A program made the translations under genes and the position numbers. 54,540 bases of DNA from Anaerolineaceae bacterium (lineage in GTDB: Bacteria; Chloroflexota; Anaerolineae; Anaerolineales; UBA11657): contig BGOS01000026.1 in NCBI GenBank assembly GCA_003569365.1, forward strand, positions 1-54,540. Direction: 5' to 3'. Below the pieces are notes generated by a model, which was given only the letters and a program-made list of their open reading frames with translations, made no database searches and had not been told where the DNA came from. Positions within the stretch are counted from its first letter, which is position 1, and each line of letters opens with the position of its first letter. Positions 24,748 to 51,083 of this stretch are shown in pieces.

Positions 24748-26313
24748 TTAGCCCCAGTCGCGCAGCACCTGGCGCGCAGCGTTGTGGCCGTTGATGCCGG
24801 TGCAGCCGCCACCAGGATGTGTGCCGGCGCCGCACAAATACAACTGCTTGATGGGCGTGCGATATTGCGCGCAATCGGGTATGGGGCGCATGTGCAGCGC
24901 CTGGTCTAATGTCATCTCGCCGTGCGTTGCGCTGCCTTCGGGCAGGCCGTAGTTGCGCTCCAAGTCCAGTGGGGTCAGTACTTGGCTATGCAGCACAAGC
25001 TGCGGCACATCCGGTGCAAATTGCGCCAGCGTGCTTAGGATGGCGCTGCCCAGCGTGGCGCGCTGCGTGTCCCAGTCCTGGCTGCGCAAGTGGTACGGCG
25101 CGTACTGGGCGTGAATGGACAGCACATGCTGCCCGGGCGGGGCAAGCGTCGCATCCGCCAGCGTTGGCAGCGTTACATCCAGCCATGGCTGTTGTGACCA
25201 GGTGCCATACTTGGCCGCATCACTGGCTTGCTCAATATAGTTGATGCTTGGCGCAATGCGAATGCGCGCTGTCGCATCAAATGCAAAGCGCGGCACACCG
25301 GACAAAGCCAGATGCATACGCGCGCTGCAGCCGCGGTATTTGATGGTGCCCGTGCTGCGCAGAAACACAGGGTCAACCTCCAGCGGATCAAGCAAGCGCT
25401 GAAAAGTTGTGCGCGGGTCTGCGTTGGAAATGACAACCTGCGCGCTGATTTCTTCTCCGCTGGCAAGCACCACACCCGCAGCGCGGCCGGCTTTCACCAC
25501 CACCTGCTGCACGGCAGCGTTCAGACGCAGCTGCGCACCCATGCTTGTGGCGGCTTTTGCGAGTGCCTGGGTTAGTGCGCCGACTCCGCCCTGCAACTGG
25601 CTGGCTGCTGCAAATGCCGGCACTTGCCCGGCTGCCAGCGCCAGCAGCCACACAAACGCCGTGCCCGCCTGCCGCGGCCCCAATGACACGCCATGCACGC
25701 CATCAACCGCAAGCGCGGCTTTGAGTGCGTCGCACTCAAACCATTCATCGAGCATGTCTGACACCGGCATGGGCAAAGTGCGAACAAGATCGCCAAGTTG
25801 CTTGCGGTTGAGGCGCCGCGCGGGCGCCACCAGCTTCAGCAGCTCCAGTAGGTCGCGGCCACTTGGTGCCGGCAGCGCGGGCGGGATCAGCATCATCAAG
25901 CGCGCCACCACCGCTGCAAGGCACTGCATGGCAGCGCAGAAATCCGGCCAGCGTGCGGCATCTGCCTTCGAGTGGCGCGCAATTTCTGCAGCGGTGCGGG
26001 CTGTGTCGCTGTAGAAGCTCAGGCGGCCGCCAGCCGGCAGCGCAGCCGTTAGCAGCGCGTCAATTGGCAGCAGCTTTAAGCCGTGCTTGTGCAGCTGCAG
26101 GTCAGCCGCCACATGTGCAACCAGGCGCCCCGTGCCTTCGGCCACACTGGAAAAACGGAAGCCGGGAAACAACTCCTCGGTAACAGCAGCGCCGCCCACC
26201 TGGGGCTGCTGCTCCAGCACCAGCACGCGTTTGCCGGCGCGCGCCAAATAGGATGCGGCCACCAGTCCATTGTGCCCGGCGCCCACAATCAACGCATCAA
26301 AAGTTTCAGCCAT
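24748..26313 (-). CDS. PYROXD2/phytoene-desaturase-like FAD oxidoreductase (copy A)
   Basis: A 521-aa flavoprotein of the amine-oxidase/CrtI superfamily. The N-terminal dinucleotide motif reads LIVGAGHNGLVAASYLARAG with the downstream acidic residue in VLVLEQQ, followed by GGAAVTEELFPGF. The C-terminus has LYLCGAGTHPGGGCTGINGH, the second FAD-contact GG motif. The overall layout matches PYROXD2-type proteins and all-trans-retinol saturases. It is the last of three tandem copies; its start at 26313 overlaps the stop of copy B by 8 bases. Substrate and reaction are unknown; no membrane helices are seen. Confidence 0.88.
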   Translation of the reverse strand: MAETFDALIVGAGHNGLVAASYLARAGKRVLVLEQQPQVGGAAVTEELFPGFRFSSVAEGTGRLVAHVAADLQLHKHGLKLLPIDALLTAALPAGGRLSFYSDTARTAAEIARHSKADAARWPDFCAAMQCLAAVVARLMMLIPPALPAPSGRDLLELLKLVAPARRLNRKQLGDLVRTLPMPVSDMLDEWFECDALKAALAVDGVHGVSLGPRQAGTAFVWLLALAAGQVPAFAAASQLQGGVGALTQALAKAATSMGAQLRLNAAVQQVVVKAGRAAGVVLASGEEISAQVVISNADPRTTFQRLLDPLEVDPVFLRSTGTIKYRGCSARMHLALSGVPRFAFDATARIRIAPSINYIEQASDAAKYGTWSQQPWLDVTLPTLADATLAPPGQHVLSIHAQYAPYHLRSQDWDTQRATLGSAILSTLAQFAPDVPQLVLHSQVLTPLDLERNYGLPEGSATHGEMTLDQALHMRPIPDCAQYRTPIKQLYLCGAGTHPGGGCTGINGHNAARQVLRDWG

Positions 26314-27886
26314 GCAGCAGCTCCATCGCAGCATTGCGCCCGTTGATGCCAACCACGCCGCCGCCGGGATGCGTGCACGCACCGCACAGATACACGCCCG
26401 GCATGGGCGTGCGATGCGCAAAGCGCTTGTCCCACATATAGTCTGGCAGGCACTCGCCCTGAAAGATGTGGCCGCCAGTGAGGCCCACGCTCTGTTCGAT
26501 GTCCGGCGGGCCCAGCACCTCGCGGTCAATAATTGCATCCGGCAGGTTGGGGCAGAAGCGCGCAATCGAGTCGATCACCAGCTGCCCGGCTGCAACGCGG
26601 TGCGAGTCCCAATCGCCTGTGGCAAACGTGGCGGGTGCGTACTGCGCAAACACACTCATGGTGTGGGTGCCGGCCGGCGCCACTGACTCGTCATACACAC
26701 TTTGCAGATAGATCTCGGTCCACATGTGCGCGGGCAGGTGGCCAGCGCGCGCTGTTTGATGCGCAGCATGCAACTGCGGCGCGCTTAGCGGCGTATTGAT
26801 GACGGCGCGGTGATGTGGCTCGTCAGATCCGGGCCGCGCCGTAAAGTTGGGCAGCGCGCGAAGCGCCAAGTTCACTTTGACCGTAGCACTTTGCATTGGC
26901 CATGCGGCCACCTTGCGGCGCCACTCCGGGTTGGCGGCGTCTCCCAGCAGGCGCAGTGTCACTGCCGGGTCTGCATTGGAGATGACGACAGGCGCGTTGA
27001 TGCGTTCGCCGCCCGCCAACTCCACACCCTCTCCCGGCAGAATGCGGGCCACCGGCACGCCGCACGCAATGGTTGCGCCCAGCTCGCGCGCCACATCGCC
27101 CAAGATGAAAGAGACCATGCCCATGCCGCCTTTCACATAACCCCATTGCCCGATCGAGTCGCCCATTCGCCCGCAAAAATGGTAGAAGTAAATTGACGCG
27201 GTGCCGCGCTCGTACGGGCTGGCATTCGTGCCAATCACGCCCTGGCCAAGGTAAGCCATTTGCAGGCGTTCATCTTTTAGATAGCGCTCCACATACTCAA
27301 CCATCGACCAGTTGAAGAGCAGGTTGATGGCATCTGCATCGCCATTGAGCCGCGCCTGCACCTGCGCAGCGGTGGGGGCGCGGCCAATCCACATGTCGCG
27401 CGCGTCCGCCGGGCGCACGGCTTCCGTGGCGCGGCTCATCACCGCCTGCATTGCAATCCAGCCATCCACATCGCCGGGCGCAAAGCGCTCAATTTCCGCG
27501 ATGCAGCGCGTGTCGTCATCCCACAACTGCACACTTGAGCCGTCTTCAAACGGGATGAACATGCCGCCGGCCGCGTGCTGCCATTCAAAGCCATGCGCGC
27601 GCAATCTCAATTCGTCAATCACCAGCGGGTGCAGAATGCCTGCCACGTATGCGCACGGCGACATGCGGATGCCGGGCCACGGTTCCGCAATGGTGCATGC
27701 GCCGCCCACGCGTTCGCGTGCCTCCAGCACCAGCACGCGCTTGCCAGCCCGCGCCAGATACGCAGCGCAAGCCAGCCCGTTGTGGCCAGCGCCAACGATG
27801 ATGGCATCCCACTTAACAGCGGCCAGCTCGCGGAGTGGCGCTGGCAGCCCCAGCTTGCCAAGGCATGCTGCAGTCGCGGATGTCAT
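26306..27886 (-). CDS. PYROXD2/phytoene-desaturase-like FAD oxidoreductase (copy B)
   Basis: A 526-aa flavoprotein. ATG at 27886 begins MTSATAACLGKLGLPAPL, a ~27-residue lead before the FAD motif IIVGAGHNGLACAAYLARAG; the N-terminal extension is longer than in the sister copies. Later blocks: RVGGACTIAEPWPGI, YFYHFCGRMGDSIGQWGYV, and CGACTHPGGGVVGINGRNA at the C-terminus. This copy is the most different of the three in its middle region, so it may oxidise a different substrate or form a complex with A or C. It lies 50 bases downstream of copy C and overlaps copy A. A redox partner is not visible in the window. Confidence 0.88.
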   Translation of the reverse strand: MTSATAACLGKLGLPAPLRELAAVKWDAIIVGAGHNGLACAAYLARAGKRVLVLEARERVGGACTIAEPWPGIRMSPCAYVAGILHPLVIDELRLRAHGFEWQHAAGGMFIPFEDGSSVQLWDDDTRCIAEIERFAPGDVDGWIAMQAVMSRATEAVRPADARDMWIGRAPTAAQVQARLNGDADAINLLFNWSMVEYVERYLKDERLQMAYLGQGVIGTNASPYERGTASIYFYHFCGRMGDSIGQWGYVKGGMGMVSFILGDVARELGATIACGVPVARILPGEGVELAGGERINAPVVISNADPAVTLRLLGDAANPEWRRKVAAWPMQSATVKVNLALRALPNFTARPGSDEPHHRAVINTPLSAPQLHAAHQTARAGHLPAHMWTEIYLQSVYDESVAPAGTHTMSVFAQYAPATFATGDWDSHRVAAGQLVIDSIARFCPNLPDAIIDREVLGPPDIEQSVGLTGGHIFQGECLPDYMWDKRFAHRTPMPGVYLCGACTHPGGGVVGINGRNAAMELLHG

Positions 27887-27936
27887 TGGCCGGGTGCAAC
27901 CGCGCACTGCGGTTGCTTGCGCAGCGCTGCGCGCAT

Positions 27937-29514
27937 CTACTTGCTGCTCCGTAATATTTCCATGGCAGCCAGGCGCCCCGGCCCGCCAGTGATGCCGCCG
28001 CCGGGATGCGTGCCAGACCCGCATTGGTAATAGTTGCGGATGGGTGTGCGGAACTTGGCCCAGCCGGCGGTGGGCCGCAAAAAGAAAATCTGGTCCAGGG
28101 TTAGCTCGCCGTGAAAGATGTTGCCTTCTGCCAGCCCGAAGTCTTGCTCCAGATCCCAGGGCGACAGCACTTGCCGGTGCAGGATCAGCTTTTTTATGCC
28201 CGGCGCAAATTCCTCCAGCGTATTCACCACGGCATCGCCAAAGGCATCGCGCTGTTGTGCGCTCCAACCGCCGTTCAGCTTGTAGGGCGCGTATTGCACA
28301 AAGATGCTCATCACATGTTTGCCGGGCGGTGCCAGTGTGGGGTCGATGGTGGACGGGATGAGCACGTCTAAAAATGGCCGGCGCGAAAACTCGCCGTACT
28401 TGGCATCGTCGTAAGCGCGCTCCACAAAGTCCACGCTCGGGCAAATTTCAATCATGCCTTGCAGCAGCGCGCGGTCCGGCATGCTGGTGAAGGTGGGCAG
28501 GCCATCGAGCGCCAGGTTCACCTTGCCGGAAGAGCCGCGATATTTAAAGTTGCCAATGGCGGTTGCAAATTCAGCTGGCAGCTGCCGGCTGTCCACCAGC
28601 TTAAGAAAAGTCTGGCGCGGGTCCAGCCCGGAGACCACTGTGCGCGCGCGGATCTCCTCGCCGCTCTCGAGTGCCACGCCCACCGCCTGCCCGTTGCGCA
28701 CAATCACTTGGGCCACAGGCGCGTTGCAGCGCAGCACGGCGCCGTGCTGCCGGGCCGCGCCGGCAATTGCGTTGCTGACGGCGCCAGTGCCGCCTTTTTG
28801 AAAACCCCAAACAGTGAAGGCGCCGTCCAGCTCGCCCATAAAGTGATGCAGCATCACATACGCAGTACCCGGCGAGCGCGGGCCCAGCATTGTGCCGATG
28901 ATGCCGTTGATTGCAGTCAGCGCCTTGAGAACGTCACTCTCAAACCACTCATCCAAAAAGTCTGTGGCGCTCATCGTCATCAGTTTTGTGAGCTGTTGGA
29001 AGGTGCGCGCATCCAGACCTTTGGCATGCCGTCCCAGTTCCAACAGCCGGCGCAGATCATCCACGCCCGGGCTCAGCGGATTTGGCGGAACCATCCCCAG
29101 GATGGGCTTCACGGCGAAGCCCATCTTGTACATCATCTGGTTGAACTCAGGGTATGCGTCTGCATCGCGCCTGGAGTGGCGCTGCAGTTCTGTGCGCGTT
29201 GTGGCCGGGTCAGACCACAGCGCCAAGTGGTCGCCGTTTTCCATCGGCACGAATGCGCTGTCGAGCGGCAGAATTTGCAGCCCGTGGCGCGGCAGCTCGA
29301 GATCACGGATGATCTCCGGGCGCAGCAGGCTCACCACATACGAGCACACCGTGTAAGTGAAGCCCGGAAAAATTTGCTCTGATACAGCAGCGCCGCCCAA
29401 AATGTGGCGGCGCTCCAGCACCAGCACTTTGCGCCCGGCGCGCGCCAGATAGGCAGCGCACGTCAGCCCGTTGTGGCCGCCGCCAATAATTACGGCATCA
29501 TAAATCTCAGCCAT
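27937..29514 (-). CDS. PYROXD2/phytoene-desaturase-like FAD oxidoreductase (copy C)
   Basis: A 525-aa flavoprotein with the N-terminal VIIGGGHNGLTCAAYLARAG, the ERRHILGGAAVSEQIFPGF segment, and the C-terminal CGSGTHPGGGITGGPGRLA. The mid-domain LGPRSPGTAYVMLHHFMGEL is close to the PYROXD2 pattern. Size and motif spacing match copy A closely; both share the LFPGF/IFPGF turn. It starts 42 bases after the GcvT-fold gene stop, so all five genes from the Rieske oxygenase onwards probably form one operon. The in vivo electron acceptor and substrate are unknown. Confidence 0.88.
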   Translation of the reverse strand: MAEIYDAVIIGGGHNGLTCAAYLARAGRKVLVLERRHILGGAAVSEQIFPGFTYTVCSYVVSLLRPEIIRDLELPRHGLQILPLDSAFVPMENGDHLALWSDPATTRTELQRHSRRDADAYPEFNQMMYKMGFAVKPILGMVPPNPLSPGVDDLRRLLELGRHAKGLDARTFQQLTKLMTMSATDFLDEWFESDVLKALTAINGIIGTMLGPRSPGTAYVMLHHFMGELDGAFTVWGFQKGGTGAVSNAIAGAARQHGAVLRCNAPVAQVIVRNGQAVGVALESGEEIRARTVVSGLDPRQTFLKLVDSRQLPAEFATAIGNFKYRGSSGKVNLALDGLPTFTSMPDRALLQGMIEICPSVDFVERAYDDAKYGEFSRRPFLDVLIPSTIDPTLAPPGKHVMSIFVQYAPYKLNGGWSAQQRDAFGDAVVNTLEEFAPGIKKLILHRQVLSPWDLEQDFGLAEGNIFHGELTLDQIFFLRPTAGWAKFRTPIRNYYQCGSGTHPGGGITGGPGRLAAMEILRSSK

Positions 29515-29556
29515 GCTTGAAGTTTCTGTGGTGCGCAGCGGGCGGATGGAAGTGCA

Positions 29557-30744
29557 TCACGCGCGTTTGTGCGGCGGGTTGTAAAACGGCAGCGCGGTCA
29601 CACGCGCTGCCGTCATGTGGCGCTGCGCCTCCACGGTTGCTTCCATGCACACGGGCGTGCCCGGCTTTGCATACTGTGGCTGAATGCGCGCCAGCACCAC
29701 ATACTTCTTTAGCAGCGGCGACCACGTGCCGCTGGTTGCCCGCCCAATTTGCACTTCATCGCTGTAAACCGGAACCGCATTGCCCCACGCGGTTTCCGGT
29801 AGGTGAATGGGCATGCCGTAGCGCTTGTAGATTTGCTCCAGCGAATCCCATTGCACATCCAACCCAACCGTGGCCCACGCTGCGCCGCGCTCGCGTTCCG
29901 CGGCCAGCGCCGCCCGCCCCACAAAGTTGCCCTTCTCCAGCATCACCGTCCAGCCCAGCCCCAGCTCGTAGGGTGTGGATTTCTGCACATCGAACACAGT
30001 TTTTTTGGACGAGATAAAGTCCACGGCCACCAGCAGCAGCCCGGCCTCAATGCGCACCATGTCCAAAGCTAGCTGCCCGGCTGCGCGCAGCAGCCGCGGC
30101 TGGCCGGCTTCCATCAAGGCATCCCATAGCCGTTCAGCATCTGCCGGGTCTGCAAACAACTCGTAGCCCAGATCTCCGGTGTAGCCGGTGCGCGTGATGC
30201 TGACATCCATGCCGGCGATTGCAGCAGAGGCATGCCGGAAATACTTGAGCTGCGCAAGCGCTGGGCCCGCTGCTTGCTGCAGGATCTCGCCCGCCAGCGG
30301 GCCCTGCAAAGCCAGTGCTGCGAGCGAGTCGCTGATGTCGTCTATCTGCACTTGCAGCCCGGTGGCATTGTCTTCAAACCAGCGCAGGCTGGGGTCCGCT
30401 GCCGTTACGCGGTAGCGGCCGGGGGCCAGCTGCGTCACGGTGCCATCATCAATGATGCGGCCGTGCTCATCACACCACGGCGTGTACAGTACCTGCCCCA
30501 CCGCGCAGCGCGCAATGTCGCGCGTCATCACGCGGTTGAGCAGCTTCAGCGCGTCGCGCCCGTGCACCAGATATTTGTAGAGCGGCGAGATGTCGATCAG
30601 CGCGGCGGCCGTACGGATGGCGTAGTACTCGCGCAAGTGATGCAGCTCGTACATGTTGGCGGAAAGGAAGCCGGACCACTCCTGCCAGCTGTGGCTCTCG
30701 CACAGCGCTGCGGTGCGCGAGTAAAACGGCGAGGGGCGCGGCAT
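29557..30744 (-). CDS. GcvT-fold aminomethyltransferase-like protein
   Basis: A 395-aa cytoplasmic protein of the GcvT/YgfZ/DMSP-demethylase fold, in which tetrahydrofolate accepts a one-carbon unit. Seen: EYYAIRTAAALIDISPLYKYLVHG-type start (family R-x6-D motif near residue 45), ALALQGPLAGEILQ, ITRTGYTGDLGYELF (the family TGYTGExGxE motif, here Asp for the first Glu), then LDMVRIEAGLLLVAVDF (R-x-E-x-G). The C-terminal barrel has SGTWSPLLKKYVVLA, like the TSGxxSP/SPSLK motif. No FAD domain is fused, unlike dimethylglycine dehydrogenase. It sits directly after the Rieske oxygenase gene, consistent with capture of released formaldehyde or a methyl group. Which donor is used is inference. Confidence 0.88.
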   Translation of the reverse strand: MPRPSPFYSRTAALCESHSWQEWSGFLSANMYELHHLREYYAIRTAAALIDISPLYKYLVHGRDALKLLNRVMTRDIARCAVGQVLYTPWCDEHGRIIDDGTVTQLAPGRYRVTAADPSLRWFEDNATGLQVQIDDISDSLAALALQGPLAGEILQQAAGPALAQLKYFRHASAAIAGMDVSITRTGYTGDLGYELFADPADAERLWDALMEAGQPRLLRAAGQLALDMVRIEAGLLLVAVDFISSKKTVFDVQKSTPYELGLGWTVMLEKGNFVGRAALAAERERGAAWATVGLDVQWDSLEQIYKRYGMPIHLPETAWGNAVPVYSDEVQIGRATSGTWSPLLKKYVVLARIQPQYAKPGTPVCMEATVEAQRHMTAARVTALPFYNPPHKRA

Positions 30745-30831
30745 TATGCGGCCGGCACCAGCACTGCGCTAATTTGGATGGAGCTGCCGGCTTTGCAATC
30801 ATTCGGGCAATAGAACTGCGCCGGCGCAGGA

Positions 30832-31926
30832 TCACGCGTGCCCGAGCGCCTTCAGTACTTCCGCATCAAACGCGGCTGGCAGCAGCTCCTGATCGGACTG
30901 CAGCTTGCCGGGCCGGTACATGCGCGAGCGCATGCCGATCTGGGTTTCACCGCAGATGTGCCAGTCTTGGCGATTGGTCATGTCCCAAAACTCAACCGCA
31001 TCCGCTGCGTCAAAGCCCGGCTGGGCCATAGCCTGCGGGTCAAACAACCATTCACAGGTAATCAGCGTGCGCTCCGGGCTTTGCGGCCAAAGGGTATGAA
31101 ACATGACGTAGTCCGGATGCAGGCTGACAAGCAGGTTGGGAAAGAGTGAGTAGTAATGTACGCGCTGCAAGTCCGCGCCGCACACGCGCCCCAGCGGCAG
31201 CCGTTTGGTGCCCCCGCTGGATGTCAGGCTACTGTGCCCTTCGTTCAGATCCATGGAGCCGCCAAGAAACGGGCCGGCGATCAGGTCATTGCTGCCGCTG
31301 TCATGCGGCGAAAGTTTTTCCAGCGCCGGATGCACAAGCGGGCAGTGGTAGCACTCAGAGTAATTCTCTGCCAGCAGTTTCCAGTTTGCATGCGCGTCGT
31401 ATTCAATGCGCTGCGCGCGCCGCAGACTTGGCAGGTTCCACATCTCAAACTTGCCGGTCATTGGCGCCAAAGCAGCAGCCAGGCTTTCACCTGCTGCATC
31501 CAGATTTACAAAGATGAAGCCTTCCCAAACTCCGGCCTGCGCGCGGTAGAGCCCGTGCTCCGCCTTGTCAAAGTCCGCCACTGCACTCATGTTAGGTGCA
31601 CCCAGCAAGCGCCCGTCCAGCGCGTAAGTCCACGCGTGGTACGGGCATTGGATGGTCTCGCGCAGCTGCCCGCTGGCCTCCGCACAAAGGCGCGTGCCGC
31701 GATGCCGGCACACATTGTGAAGCGCTTGCACGCTGCCACTGCGGTCGCGCAGAATGATCAGATTATCGCCACCGATCTCGCGCAGAAAATAATCACCGGG
31801 GTTTGCAATTTCTGCAGCGCGCCCGACACACACCCAGCGCTTCCGGAAAATATGCTCGATCTCTGCCTGCAGGATGGCGTCCGTTGTGTAGTACTCGCTG
31901 GGGAGCGTGTTTAGAGCGTCCGGCAT
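30832..31926 (-). CDS. Rieske non-heme iron oxygenase, alpha subunit
   Basis: A 364-aa ring-hydroxylating-type oxygenase. The Rieske [2Fe-2S] cluster ligands are CRHRGTRL (CxH) and CPYHAW (CxxH). The mononuclear iron site is in ENYSECYHCPLVHP, where two His and a later Asp are expected. The layout resembles glycine-betaine or stachydrine demethylases (GbcA-like) and carnitine monooxygenase more than classical aromatic dioxygenases. A dedicated reductase is not encoded nearby. The start ATG at 31926 faces the Lrp regulator across a 335-base promoter gap. The substrate is inferred to be a methylated amine or betaine because of the GcvT-fold neighbour; an aromatic substrate remains possible. Confidence 0.88.
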   Translation of the reverse strand: MPDALNTLPSEYYTTDAILQAEIEHIFRKRWVCVGRAAEIANPGDYFLREIGGDNLIILRDRSGSVQALHNVCRHRGTRLCAEASGQLRETIQCPYHAWTYALDGRLLGAPNMSAVADFDKAEHGLYRAQAGVWEGFIFVNLDAAGESLAAALAPMTGKFEMWNLPSLRRAQRIEYDAHANWKLLAENYSECYHCPLVHPALEKLSPHDSGSNDLIAGPFLGGSMDLNEGHSSLTSSGGTKRLPLGRVCGADLQRVHYYSLFPNLLVSLHPDYVMFHTLWPQSPERTLITCEWLFDPQAMAQPGFDAADAVEFWDMTNRQDWHICGETQIGMRSRMYRPGKLQSDQELLPAAFDAEVLKALGHA

Positions 31927-32117
31927 GTTGTGAACTCCGTTGCCATAGACCGGGCTACCCGCTCACCCTTTGAGCAGCGTTGGAACGTGCGCGGCAGCTT
32001 GGTGGGCGCGACCGGCAGCCGAGGAATCAACAGTGTGGGCGCCGACCTTGCTTCGGATTCGGAAGAGTTTCTTGTAGCGTGGTGCATATTGAATTTAATC
32101 ACTCAAAAGCTAGTGAA

Positions 32118-32231
32118 CCAATATTGTAACAGGCTATTATCCGTTGATTGCGCCGTTTACAAGCCATTGAGAGACGTGCTTCAAAACAAGACAGGCGGTT
32201 GTGCGGCTCAGGCAAACACGTACAATATTGG
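32118..32231. promoter_or_regulatory. Inverted repeat spanning the divergent Rieske/Lrp promoters
   Basis: CCAATATTGTA at 32118-32128 and TACAATATTGG at 32221-32231 are perfect reverse complements, 92 bases apart. Each contains the palindrome CAATATTG and a TACAAT that could be a -10 box for the outward-facing gene (minus strand 32128-32123 for the Rieske operon, plus strand 32221-32226 for lrp). This fits paired operators for the Lrp-type protein. The rest of the 31927-32261 gap shows no gene. Confidence 0.6.
32199..32226 (+). promoter_or_regulatory. Promoter of the Lrp-type regulator gene
   Basis: -35 TTGTGC (32199-32204), 16-base spacer and -10 TACAAT (32221-32226). The -10 coincides with one arm of the inverted repeat, as expected for an autoregulated gene. 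Confidence 0.5.
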
Positions 32232-32261
32232 CAATGAATAGAAGTGAGGGGTAAATCCGCT

Positions 32262-32744
32262 ATGCCGCGACCTAAGCACTCTCTGGACCGGCTCGACCTG
32301 TCCATCATCCGCTGTTTGCAGAAGGATGGGCGCCGCCCCTACGCTGAAATTGCCGCGCAGCTCGGCATATCAGCTTCCACTGTGCAACAGCGCGCTACGC
32401 GCCTGATCGACAGCGGTGCAATCCAAATTACCGCAGTGGCTGACCCCGCCACGCTGGGGTACCCGGTGGCGGCAACTGTGGCCGTGAAGGTGGATGGTGT
32501 GCGCCTGAAAGCAGCGGCCGCTTCCATCGCCAAGTTTTCTGAGGTGGGCTATGTTGCAATTTGCACCGGCTCTAATGACCTGCTGCTCGAGGTGGGTTGC
32601 CGTGACAATGATGAGCTGATCGAATTTGTCTCCAGTAAACTTTCAAAGATCAAGGGCGTGCGCGAAACCGAAATTTATTTGTATCTGCGGATAGTCAAGA
32701 ACACCTACCAATGGGGACCATTCGATGACAAAGACAAGGCGTAA
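32262..32744 (+). CDS. Lrp/AsnC family transcriptional regulator
   Basis: A 160-aa DNA-binding regulator. The N-terminal winged helix has LDRLDLSIIRCLQKDGRRPYAEIAAQLGISASTVQQRATRL-type sequence with recognition helix SASTVQQRATRLID. The C-terminal RAM/AsnC ligand domain has ATVAVKV..., AICTGSNDLLLEVGC and VRETEIYLYLRIVK. ATG at 32262 has AGGGG about 10 bases upstream; an earlier GTG lacks one. It is transcribed away from the Rieske/GcvT/flavoprotein operon and shares its regulatory gap, so it probably controls that operon in response to an amino-acid-like effector or a betaine. Autoregulation is inferred from the inverted repeat. Confidence 0.92.
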   Translation: MPRPKHSLDRLDLSIIRCLQKDGRRPYAEIAAQLGISASTVQQRATRLIDSGAIQITAVADPATLGYPVAATVAVKVDGVRLKAAAASIAKFSEVGYVAICTGSNDLLLEVGCRDNDELIEFVSSKLSKIKGVRETEIYLYLRIVKNTYQWGPFDDKDKA

Positions 32745-47876: not shown

Positions 47877-49308
47877 TTATTTGCGCACATACACTTGCCA
47901 GAACTTGGAGTAGAACATGGTATCCCACGCAGTGCTCGGAAAGTCAGTCTCCGCTCCACCAAACCGAGGTGACCAAACAACGATCGCTTTTGAGATTGTG
48001 GGGTCAATTTGGGTGCGAGAATGCTTGAACCGGGGAAGCTGGAGTGAGAAGTCACGCGCTAGGTGGGCTGGAATTGCTCCGGCCGCCTCCATTCCATTGC
48101 AGAAAACCAACTCCTGGCGTGCAGCCGCTTGGAACGCTGAGTTGCCGCGAACCCAAGCCATCAAATTTTGGGTGTCGTAGTGGTAAAAGCTTTCGCGGGT
48201 CAAGGCCCACTGCGACACCAGCATATTGAAGAATAGTGCCCCAATCGGAATCAATACCTGAAAGATCGTGCTGGTTTGTGGCAACATCTGCGCCACAAAA
48301 ATTGCAACCGGAAATGCAAAAAAGATGCCCAGCGGTCCCGCATAATACGAAATTGTGCTCCATGGCAGCAGGATCGCAACGTACCCGCCGTACATAAGCA
48401 CACCCGTAAATATCCCCCATTTCTGGCGTGCGGTAAACAGTGCAAGCTGCCGCAGTTTAGGTCCGGAACGGGATGCTGCGGCACCCAGCAGCACAACAAG
48501 AATGACCCACGGAAGATGGTTTGCAAAATCTTTTGACAACCAAGCAGAAAAGTTTCCAGACATACGGGACCAATTGGTAAAGGAATAGGAACTCGTATAA
48601 GCGCCCTGTGCAAACACCTTTAGACCAATCCCATAGGTGGCTGTTCCCACTAGGTTTACCAAACCCACCCATAACGCTCTCGAACGTATCTCACTCTCGA
48701 TCCAACCTAGGATAGTAAATCCAAGACCGAATGCCACCCCGACAGCAACCAGAGGTTCCTTTGCGCCAAAACCAATAACCATAAATAAACGCCGGCTATA
48801 AACAAGGTGGTAAATTGGAATGGGGAAGGCGCTTCGAAACTTATCAAAAGCAATTAAGTGCAAGACCACAAAAGAGTACGCCCAGGATTTCATGCGTAGA
48901 CAAGAAAAAAAAGGTGTCGTAAAAATAATGAAAAGACAATGTGACTGCAACGAAAATCGGCATAGAGGCGCACTTCCCAGAAATGCGCTGGACTGCTGCG
49001 CCCCAAACAGAAAGGACCAAACATGCTTCTATCCACTTAAGAACATGCATAGAAATAGGTGAATACCGAAACATTGAAAAGAAGATTGCCTGATGCAGTG
49101 CGAAGGTGGGCTTAAATTCTCCAAATGCTAGGAAGCCACGGAAAATAGAGCTGAACCGCTTTGTGACTACGGACCCATCGGAGATAAGGCCGGCGTCATC
49201 CATTAATCCCCAATACCACTCCTGTAGGTAGAAGCTCAACAGTATCGTGAGTAGTGGTACTGTGGCCGGAAAAAACCAAATAAAGAATAGAATGCTTCGT
49301 TGTGCCAT
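47877..49308 (-). pseudogene. Polytopic membrane protein, frameshifted copy
   Basis: About 476 residues if the frame is rejoined, matching its 482-aa neighbour at 49635. The first frame (49308 to about 48845) contains SFYLQEWYWGLMDDAG and DTFFFLSTHEILGVLFCGLALN; the second resumes at about 48860 and includes KEPLVAVGVAFGL, YAGPLGIFFAFPVAIFVAQM and ends in DTMFYSKFWQVYVRK. A one-base change near 48845-48860, in a T-run, explains the break. Eleven or so helices are predicted. It may be a GT-C-like or O-antigen-related membrane protein, but no diagnostic catalytic motif was seen. Whether it is truly broken is uncertain. Confidence 0.7.
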
Positions 49309-49634
49309 TGGCAGTGGCGTGTCCGCAACGGCGGTCAAGTGTTTTTAGTGCTTAGTGCGCCCACAGAATTAATATTTAGAAAATTCTCGCAGGATGATAG
49401 TTGCTAATCCCGTGCGGGGGCTCTTCAGTGGAAGGAGAACACTCTGCCACTAGCGGGGTAGCAGTGGACATTAAGTGGTTCCGGCATCCCAAAAACCGAG
49501 TTGTAAGGTTCCAACAAAATAGGGCGAATGCAGCATTGTAGATTTCCAGAGGCAGCAGAACATGAGCGGTGATGTCCGAACGAAGAATCTCCCTCTGAGC
49601 TTTTCTTGGGCCACAAAGTAGGTGTATCCCTGCC

Positions 49635-51083
49635 CTATTTATGCACATACACCTGCCAGAACTTGGAGTAGAACATCGTATCCCACACATCTGGCGCGAA
49701 GACATCAGTACTACTGCCGAAGCGCGGTGTATAGACCATTACTTCGCCACTGCGAATTAGATTCTGATCGAAGCCTTGGTACTTGAAACCGGGTATCGAC
49801 ACTCCAAAGTCTCGTCCTAAATGTGCTGGAATTGCACCGCCACCCTCCATTGCGTTGCAGTAAACAAGTTCACTGCGGGCCGCCACTTGGAATGCAGGAT
49901 TGCCCTGAATCCAAGCCATAAGATTCTGGGTGTCGTAGTGATAGAGGCTCTCGCGGGTAAGCGCCCATTGCGACACGAACATATTAAGCAGAAGTGCAGC
50001 TACCGGAGTTAATACCTGCAGTGCGATGCTGGTATGCGGCAAAATCTGCGCAACAAAGATGGCAACAGGGATGGCGAAAAATACACCGAGTGGCCCAGCA
50101 TAGTATGCAGTGGTGTTCCAAGGCAGAATAATTAGAAAATAACCACCATACAGTAGCAGGCCGATCACAATGCCCCATTTTTGTCGTGGGGTGAACAATA
50201 GTCCAAGCCTCATTCCGGCTTTGGATACAAAGGCTGCAAATCCCGCCATTATTACGGTAGCCAGCCATGGGCTGTGATTAAATAGGTCTTTACTCGTCCA
50301 AGAGGAGAGGTTACCTAATAATCGGGGCACATTCGTTAGCGAGTAACTGCTCGCATGAGCGGATGGTGTCATTCCAAATCTTAAAAAGAGGGCGTAGCCC
50401 AACGACGCCGTAAATACCATACCACCAAGAAGAAGTGCTTGCCTGCTATTGTGTTTATCAACAAAGCTGAGAAGAACAAAACTAAGCCCAAGTGCAATTC
50501 CAACTGCCACCATTGGTTCCTTGGTTGTTATCGCGAGCGATGAGCACAGTACTCCAAGAGCCCACAGGATGATGAACCGAGTTTGTGAACCTGCTTCAAG
50601 TGTACCGAGGAAGAAATTTAGCGCAAGACCCCAGAAAAGAAGACCAAGAACTTCATGGGTGGAAATGAAAAAAAACGTATCGTACAAATTATGAAAGGAC
50701 AGAGTAACCGCGACAAATATTAGTGCAGCACGGTGATTGCCACCGATTTTGCGTACAGCATTACCCCACACTACAAGCATTAGACATGCTTCTGTCCACT
50801 TCAGAACATGAAGCAGTACTGGATTATGTTCAAACCAAGTGTAGAAGATTGCGGAGTGCAGTGAAAATGTGAATTGCATGCGGCCGGCTGAAAATCCGCG
50901 TGCGCCAAAATCATTAGAAAAGCGCTCCACAACAGTGCGACCCATGCCTAGAATTGAGGTATCATCCATCAGCCCCCAATACCATTCCTGTAAATAGAAA
51001 CTTAGAAGAATTGTGCCCAGCGGCACTATGATGGGGAATATCCAGAGCAGATTTAGATTGGCGTATTTTTCAAATGTTCGCAT
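49635..51083 (-). CDS. Polytopic membrane protein, intact copy
   Basis: A 482-aa protein with about eleven membrane helices. After helix 1 it has SFYLQEWYWGLMDDTS, whose acidic DD pair resembles the first-loop acid of GT-C glycosyltransferases. VTLSFHNLYDTFFFISTHEV follows, then KEPMVAVGIALGL, PLGVFFAIPVAIFVAQI and a C-terminal soluble segment ending DTMFYSKFWQVYVHK. It is a tandem paralogue of the gene at 47877, separated by a 326-base gap (49309-49634) in which I see no gene, only a possible shadow frame. Lipid-linked sugar donors from the neighbouring phosphotransferase and GT2 would fit such an enzyme, but this is inference. Confidence 0.75.
   Translation of the reverse strand: MRTFEKYANLNLLWIFPIIVPLGTILLSFYLQEWYWGLMDDTSILGMGRTVVERFSNDFGARGFSAGRMQFTFSLHSAIFYTWFEHNPVLLHVLKWTEACLMLVVWGNAVRKIGGNHRAALIFVAVTLSFHNLYDTFFFISTHEVLGLLFWGLALNFFLGTLEAGSQTRFIILWALGVLCSSLAITTKEPMVAVGIALGLSFVLLSFVDKHNSRQALLLGGMVFTASLGYALFLRFGMTPSAHASSYSLTNVPRLLGNLSSWTSKDLFNHSPWLATVIMAGFAAFVSKAGMRLGLLFTPRQKWGIVIGLLLYGGYFLIILPWNTTAYYAGPLGVFFAIPVAIFVAQILPHTSIALQVLTPVAALLLNMFVSQWALTRESLYHYDTQNLMAWIQGNPAFQVAARSELVYCNAMEGGGAIPAHLGRDFGVSIPGFKYQGFDQNLIRSGEVMVYTPRFGSSTDVFAPDVWDTMFYSKFWQVYVHK

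Follow-up and report, generated by a model that had tools for sequence, protein, structure and literature searches.

Why should a bacterium keep the genes for a Rieske oxygenase, a GcvT-like folate protein and three flavoproteins one behind the other, with the gene for an Lrp/AsnC regulator facing away from them? The question is raised by a stretch of 54,540 nt (contig BGOS01000026.1 of GenBank assembly GCA_003569365.1, the 2.6 Mb assembly of an Anaerolineaceae bacterium), the whole of which is called the window here. An earlier note on this DNA had described five same-strand genes with gaps of 87, 42, 50 and -8 nt and an Lrp regulator, a description borne out by the coordinates (the five genes are on the minus strand and the regulator gene, divergent from them, is on the plus strand; Table 1). 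Its suggestion that a demethylation route is plausible now has the support of the clade of the Rieske protein, the motifs of the GcvT protein and the conservation of the set. The reading we favour, at a probability of about 0.6, is that the operon provides an N-demethylation and one-carbon (C1) salvage route for a methylated amino compound, either a betaine or some N-methyl amino acid. We infer, and put conditionally below, the individual reactions and their order, the compound acted on, the electron donor and how the genes are regulated.

Conservation of the cluster

Is the grouping more than an accident? The cluster is real and conserved. Genes for Rieske, GcvT and flavoproteins are clustered in a genome of the same genus (L014; loci fetched for comparison carry L numbers), in another family of the same order, there with one flavoprotein (L115), and also in L153, L065, L068 and L090, a looser set in L055 having a single gene between GcvT and the flavoproteins; in a Caldithrix genome (L070) a GcvT gene and two flavoprotein genes share a short contig. 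Such recurrence in related genomes was what the earlier note had proposed to look for. The closest named relative is isolate ZSMay80m-chloro-G1, of the same genus, with a Rieske protein 91% identical, and a passage of PMC6169038 names ZSMay80m-G1 as representative of the CL500-11 cluster. Against the same-genus relative, the ratio of nonsynonymous to synonymous substitution rates (dN/dS) is 0.064 for the Rieske gene, 0.075 for GcvT, 0.039 for flavoprotein 1, 0.083 for flavoprotein 2 and 0.056 for Lrp, a comparison that excludes flavoprotein 3, which falls past the end of the relative's contig. Since these values are 0.04-0.08, the five genes compared are maintained, and because low dN/dS goes together with recurrence in Chloroflexota and Gemmatimonadota, and partly elsewhere, the arrangement is not due to chance.

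The source genome has a paralogous set on its contig C3 (L113, 8287-13799, in the order GcvT, flavoprotein, flavoprotein, Rieske), with identities of 50% for GcvT, 65% and 43% for the flavoproteins and 32% for the Rieske protein, which groups in the tree with YeaW, outside the subfamily of the window protein. H5_CFX5 carries two such sets on one contig, and between them lie an Lrp gene, genes for a class III aminotransferase and a relative of acyl-CoA dehydrogenases, and a CoA-synthetase-like gene, the last label being a reading of its sequence.

Which of the genes belong most closely together? Among 301 Chloroflexota genomes, with counts that depend on the E-value set for each search, the GcvT subfamily occurs in 34, the Rieske protein in 39 and flavoprotein 1 in 80. 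All but one of the GcvT-carrying genomes (33 of 34) have flavoprotein 1, its gene being within 3 kb at 33 of the 37 GcvT places; for the linkage the Fisher p is 8e-21, uncorrected for relatedness. The converse search finds GcvT within 3 kb at 21 of the 24 best flavoprotein-1 places. With this link seen from both sides, and the Rieske gene partly elsewhere, the tight unit is therefore GcvT plus flavoprotein 1; the full set of genes is rare, the majority of genomes carrying parts of it. The Rieske subfamily was followed at 79 loci, the genomes of 47 of which were used for genome-level counts of GcvT and reductases; three loci under 5 kb were excluded from counts of neighbours, which leaves 76. 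As gene calls outside the window came from simple scripts, which in some loci failed to call the Rieske gene, neighbour counts over the 76 are lower bounds.

Relatives of the three kinds of protein

The Rieske gene product has the Pfam domains Rieske and Ring_hydroxyl_A, and by sequence its closest relatives of solved structure are 3n0q, CntA and Stc2 (E between about 1e-44 and 1e-49, with 1.6e-28 for the best aromatic enzyme). A tree against aromatic dioxygenases had been proposed beforehand as a check, and in the tree built here, which has 106 rows, three aromatic references (hcaE-type) and L013 split off with support 100/100. The window protein sits in a subfamily of its own of 83 rows (98/88), and the other 19 rows, among them Stc2, YeaW and the GbcA-like protein of a Priestia betaine locus, are weakly grouped (81/57); branches among the reference rows are long, and L114/L014 (apparently the same contig), L115/L006 and L113/L003 are repeat fetches of one gene. 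At what we take to be the bridging position of Rieske oxygenases there is Glu in 102 of the 106 rows and Asp in the other four, namely the three aromatic references and L013. An AlphaFold model (pLDDT 93) matches 3n0q, Stc2 and CntA with Z of 35.4-39.7 and aromatic enzymes with Z up to 35.4, the weakest CntA match being level at that value with the strongest terephthalate dioxygenase match. Tree, bridging residue and the sequence and model comparisons disfavour aromatic ring hydroxylation as the principal activity, and they support a place for the protein with the quaternary-amine N-demethylases as a class, one not tied to a substrate. With Stc2 (stachydrine), YeaW/CntA (carnitine) and GbcA (glycine betaine) it has in common the clade, the bridging Glu, the Rieske and iron-ligand motifs and the modelled fold; it differs from them in being about 30% identical, in its separate subfamily and in that an FNR-type reductase was not found nearby. 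'GbcA-like', as it had been called, thus holds for the broad clade, but it is not GbcA: it scores 219 bits and the cut-off of the equivalog NF058607 is 670. GbcA is its best NCBIfam name all the same, just as the C-terminal half of trimethylamine N-oxide demethylase (Tdm) is that of the GcvT protein and CrtO that of the flavoproteins, all far below cut-off.

Is the GcvT-like protein, with domains GCV_T and GCV_T_C, one that handles folate? Its alignment with E. coli GcvT extends along the whole protein, and it retains the IDD aspartates and the TGYTG..GYE and R..EAG motifs, among which we take the catalytic Asp and the pterin-binding motif of the fold to lie. That it is of the folate type and lacks the usual fused FAD domain, as claimed at the outset, agrees with these kept positions and with its standing alone, without the DAO fusion of dimethylglycine dehydrogenases. 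It also shares with its relatives insertions that are absent from E. coli GcvT and from the Priestia oxidoreductase described below. As a glycine-cleavage T-protein (TIGR00528) it scores 168 bits for a cut-off of 235.85, and as trimethylamine N-oxide demethylase (NF053776) 286 for a cut-off of 1100, in the C-terminal half alone. That half of Tdm is its best full-length sequence match (E 1e-56), and the N-terminal half of Tdm has no counterpart in it. Dimethylglycine oxidase and dehydrogenase have a related GcvT part (E 5e-31 to 1pj5), and the methylene transfer to folate proposed here would be alike; those enzymes are fusions of DAO and GcvT, whereas here GcvT is separate and its neighbour has a fold like CrtI and monoamine oxidases (MAO). 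Elsewhere in the subfamily, GcvT adjoins an ABC transporter whose sequence resembles FecCD/BtuCD importers of iron or cobalamin (L123, L125, L126, L127 and L129) or, in L117, L118 and L120, a small protein of some 110 residues that is cupin-like.

The three flavoproteins, each with Amino_oxidase and NAD_binding_8 domains, had been said to have no obvious place. They do have one, since flavoprotein 1 is the usual GcvT neighbour and the others belong to two further old lineages. Judged by a tree of 65 rows, they represent three old lineages (SH-aLRT 96-100), one member of each being in the window, and recent triplication is unsupported. In the flavoprotein 1 lineage, 35 of 36 rows have a GcvT gene no more than 2.2 kb away, many of their loci having been fetched via GcvT; seven of the 12 flavoprotein 2 rows are that close to a Rieske gene without a GcvT gene within the same distance; the 17 rows of the flavoprotein 3 lineage include the second flavoprotein of several clusters. 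As part of the loci were fetched for holding GcvT, these neighbour labels are biased towards it, and the unbiased measure of the linkage is that of the genome-wide searches from either side. The placement of flavoprotein 2 is less sure because its branch is long; L093 is the window gene, and L095/L117, L099/L120, L104/L121 and L107/L123 are apparent duplicate pairs. A model of flavoprotein 1 (pLDDT 88) has a carotenoid desaturase as nearest solved fold (Z 35.0), and next renalase, putrescine oxidase and monoamine oxidases (Z about 22-26).

Promoter region and electron supply

The regulator has an AsnC-type helix-turn-helix domain and AsnC_trans_reg. Between its gene and that of the Rieske protein is the 11-mer CCAATATTGTA, with an exact inverted copy, TACAATATTGG, 92 nt away. 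The counterpart pair in L014 is CCGATATTGTA/TACAATATCGG, again spaced by 92 nt, and the single base in which it differs is substituted in both arms, i.e., the arms covary between two species. With up to one mismatch allowed, the 11-mer occurs in the window at just these two places. As two or more matches also turned up in 10 of 100 shuffles, rarity alone is weak, and the case for a putative operator rests on covariation and spacing. Only part of the arms is seen in L115, and a search for inverted repeats whose arms are at most 40 nt apart gave none.

Table 1. Features of the locus, in positions of the window
Feature	Position	Strand	Size or basis
Rieske non-heme iron oxygenase, quaternary-amine type by sequence and model, own subfamily	30832-31926	-	364 aa
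Stand-alone GcvT-like folate protein	29557-30744	-	395 aa
Flavoprotein 1, CrtI/MAO fold, usual neighbour of the GcvT subfamily	27937-29514	-	525 aa
Flavoprotein 2, of a lineage elsewhere mostly beside Rieske genes	26306-27886	-	526 aa from ATG 27886
Flavoprotein 3, of the lineage that supplies the second flavoprotein of several clusters with GcvT or Rieske	24748-26313	-	521 aa from ATG 26313
Lrp/AsnC regulator, divergent	GTG 32244 or, more likely, ATG 32262, to 32744	+	Pfam
Left arm of inverted 11-mer pair, putative operator	32118-32128		sequence comparison
Right arm of inverted 11-mer pair, putative operator	32221-32231		sequence comparison

In another part of the window, at 47877-51083 on the minus strand, there are two similar tandem open frames, whose called products have near-identical hydrophobic stretches.

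From where would the Rieske protein take its electrons? The cluster in the window has no reductase gene, as had been seen at the start, and no GbcB/CntB/Stc4-like reductase was found near any of the 79 subfamily loci with the reductases of the reference loci and hcaD as queries. The sole weak match (L045, E 1e-7 over 91 residues) is the ferredoxin part of a corrinoid-activator relative. Among six quaternary-amine reference loci, five have an FNR-type reductase beside or near the oxygenase (L133, L135, L137, L138 and L141), and the sixth, Priestia L136, gives no match to the reductase queries. The source genome has eight places with a 2Fe-2S ferredoxin domain and, in a search aimed at that domain, no match to PF00970 (FAD_binding_6). 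A YeaX-like match is present in two and a PF00970 match in 12 of the 47 subfamily genomes, and 35, many of the assemblies being incomplete, have neither. PF00970 missed the YeaX-like match of G385, and the YeaX query reached Stc4-type proteins at just E about 1e-16, so other reductases may be missed. The plain alternative donor is a ferredoxin with another kind of reductase. There is also a bolder idea, which we regard as improbable, of a reductase-free, amine-driven Rieske demethylase: a flavoprotein would oxidise one N-methyl group, GcvT would move the methylene to folate, and the two electrons would pass, directly or via ferredoxin, to the Rieske centre, there paying for oxygenation of the next N-methyl group, so that the pair of reactions would be redox-neutral and an NAD(P)H reductase not needed. 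A table in PMC5209329 gives a 'phytoene dehydrogenase' as putative reductase of a Rieske oxygenase of Anaerolinea thermophila and, for Fervidobacterium, a 'phytoene dehydrogenase-like oxidoreductase' among several putative reductases; no other link of the kind was found.

The proposed route and its rivals

In the route that we favour, the Rieske oxygenase would hydroxylate one N-methyl group, which would leave as formaldehyde, and one or more of the three CrtI/MAO-fold flavoproteins would take a remaining N-methyl group to the oxidation level of an iminium (methylene). That methylene would be passed on to tetrahydrofolate by the stand-alone GcvT protein, giving 5,10-methylene-tetrahydrofolate. 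Flavoprotein 1 and GcvT together would be the counterpart of dimethylglycine dehydrogenase, encoded by two genes and of different fold. The Lrp/AsnC protein may control the divergent promoter through the 11-mer pair. Such a scheme would work like a glycine-betaine or a dimethylglycine route. A likeness on the level of gene content is provided by the plasmid betaine locus of Priestia megaterium (L136), which has the most similar plasmid Rieske protein (34% identical). There too a Rieske protein, a flavin oxidase and a GcvT-containing protein occur together with no match to the reductase queries, and the locus also holds glycine-cleavage genes (gcvP) and a BCCT transporter gene. It differs in that its GcvT part is inside a larger FAD protein, an oxidoreductase, and its oxidase is SolA.

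What do neighbouring genes in relatives say about the substrate? SolA-type oxidases are encoded within 3 kb of the Rieske gene in seven of the 76 loci, and in four of these seven there is also a further Rieske protein, which is GbcA-like. L045 and L160 have relatives of corrinoid methyltransferases or their activators beside the Rieske gene, and L116 has such relatives beside GcvT; matches to trimethylamine methyltransferase and to the activator score under their cut-offs. Amino-acid-type ABC genes precede the Rieske gene in L016, where the binding protein scores below its cut-offs, and in L083, and are divergent from it in L031. In L014 and L115, genes for a PotDBCA-type transporter follow Lrp; a transporter of this type was sought in vain beside Lrp in the window, and a homologue with 54% identity in its binding protein is elsewhere in the genome. 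The binding proteins of L014, L115 and the source genome have Ser, Ser and Cys at acidic positions of PotD that we take to be polyamine ligands, with most aromatic positions kept, a pattern that would fit a zwitterion better than a polyamine; that of L128 retains the acidic residues. On contig C22 of the source genome (L171, 8306-19215), a Pot-type transporter, a homologue of the one in L014 and L115, is encoded about 5 kb from genes for an aldehyde ferredoxin oxidoreductase and an MttB-like protein, the latter called as two overlapping pieces. Taken together, these neighbourhoods suggest a methylated amino compound, which in some lineages may derive from tryptophan.

Several points weigh against the favoured route. 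A close GcvT gene was found in just nine of the 47 genomes with the Rieske subfamily, so that this protein often works without GcvT. The window cluster lacks the class III aminotransferase and acyl-CoA genes of H5_CFX5, and verrucomicrobial relatives adjoin tryptophan genes, not N-methyl genes.

Could the Rieske protein then hydroxylate carbon, with no demethylation, and GcvT just scavenge C1 units from the flavoproteins or other enzymes? A subfamily distinct from all characterised members compared, and relatives beside aromatic amino-acid genes, would suit this, but clade, bridging Glu and model comparison favour N-demethylases, and we hold it to be unlikely. The same neighbours could be taken differently, as those of a module that demethylates tryptophan betaine (hypaphorine), N-methyl-tryptophan or N-methylanthranilate and feeds kynurenine or anthranilate routes. 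Within 3 kb of the Rieske gene, 12 of the 76 loci have a gene like that of tryptophan 2,3-dioxygenase (TDO), 12 an ACMSD-like gene, 11 HAAO and four a KMO-like gene, all in Verrucomicrobia; kynureninase is upstream of the GcvT-flavoprotein-Rieske set in L090, GcvT-flavoprotein 1 is preceded in L158 (from the genome of L046) by a set of aromatic acyl-CoA genes, and a SolA neighbour exceeds the cut-off for N-methyl-L-tryptophan oxidase (323 bits, cut-off 257). SolA also acts on sarcosine, however; the TDO relative examined is below its cut-off (248 bits, cut-off 390.7), the window genome has no match to the TDO family (PF03301), and the neighbours in the window's own clade are Lrp, a Pot-type transporter and a class III aminotransferase. 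The KMO and ACMSD names are themselves readings of sequence, for which NCBIfam gives VioC under cut-off and nothing, respectively. This rival reading of the module seems to us quite improbable. The verrucomicrobial loci (L036, L037, L053, L060, L063, L078, L086 and others), where Rieske relatives are beside genes for TDO and the kynurenine pathway, suggest an undescribed step of tryptophan catabolism in those bacteria.

That the cluster serves to make or modify a secondary product, carotenoid-like or of another kind, with the flavoproteins as desaturases or ketolases, is very unlikely. CrtO is the best NCBIfam name of all three and a carotenoid desaturase the nearest fold to the first, but their scores for the CrtO beta-carotene ketolase family (NF045689; 311, 159 and 286 bits) are far under the cut-off of 1000, their partners are a folate protein and a Rieske protein of N-demethylase type, and no further carotenoid gene was named among the window genes looked at. 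As to chance neighbours with no common function, the rarity of the full set is what one would expect of them; the clusters in L014, L115, L153, L065, L068 and L090, the looser one in L055, the paralogous cluster and the two-sided GcvT-flavoprotein 1 link leave that idea with hardly any probability.

How new is the N-demethylation route that we prefer? The earlier note knew of no described pathway with this set of genes, and none was found in searches of the literature, which took in homarine and the degradation of hypaphorine and covered open-licence papers and no preprint server. A homarine operon is known and serves here as no more than a lead. For SAR202 Chloroflexi, tetrahydrofolate-linked demethylation and sarcosine oxidase genes (PMC5395668) and an expansion of ring-hydroxylating dioxygenases (PMC6946804) have been reported, in passages that do not mention the gene set. 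The best reading is that the chemistry is of a known N-demethylation kind and the gene arrangement new relative to that literature. What lifts the cluster above a routine catabolic operon is the matter of electron supply, as the Rieske subfamily extends across several phyla with an FNR-type reductase not found adjacent, and the source of its electrons is directly testable. If the favoured reading is true, a two-gene equivalent of dimethylglycine dehydrogenase would give a name to, and make testable, a pair of genes in at least 30 of the 301 Chloroflexota genomes. In large lakes, the deep oxygenated water has abundant CL500-11 bacteria, for which methylated nitrogen compounds would be a likely food.

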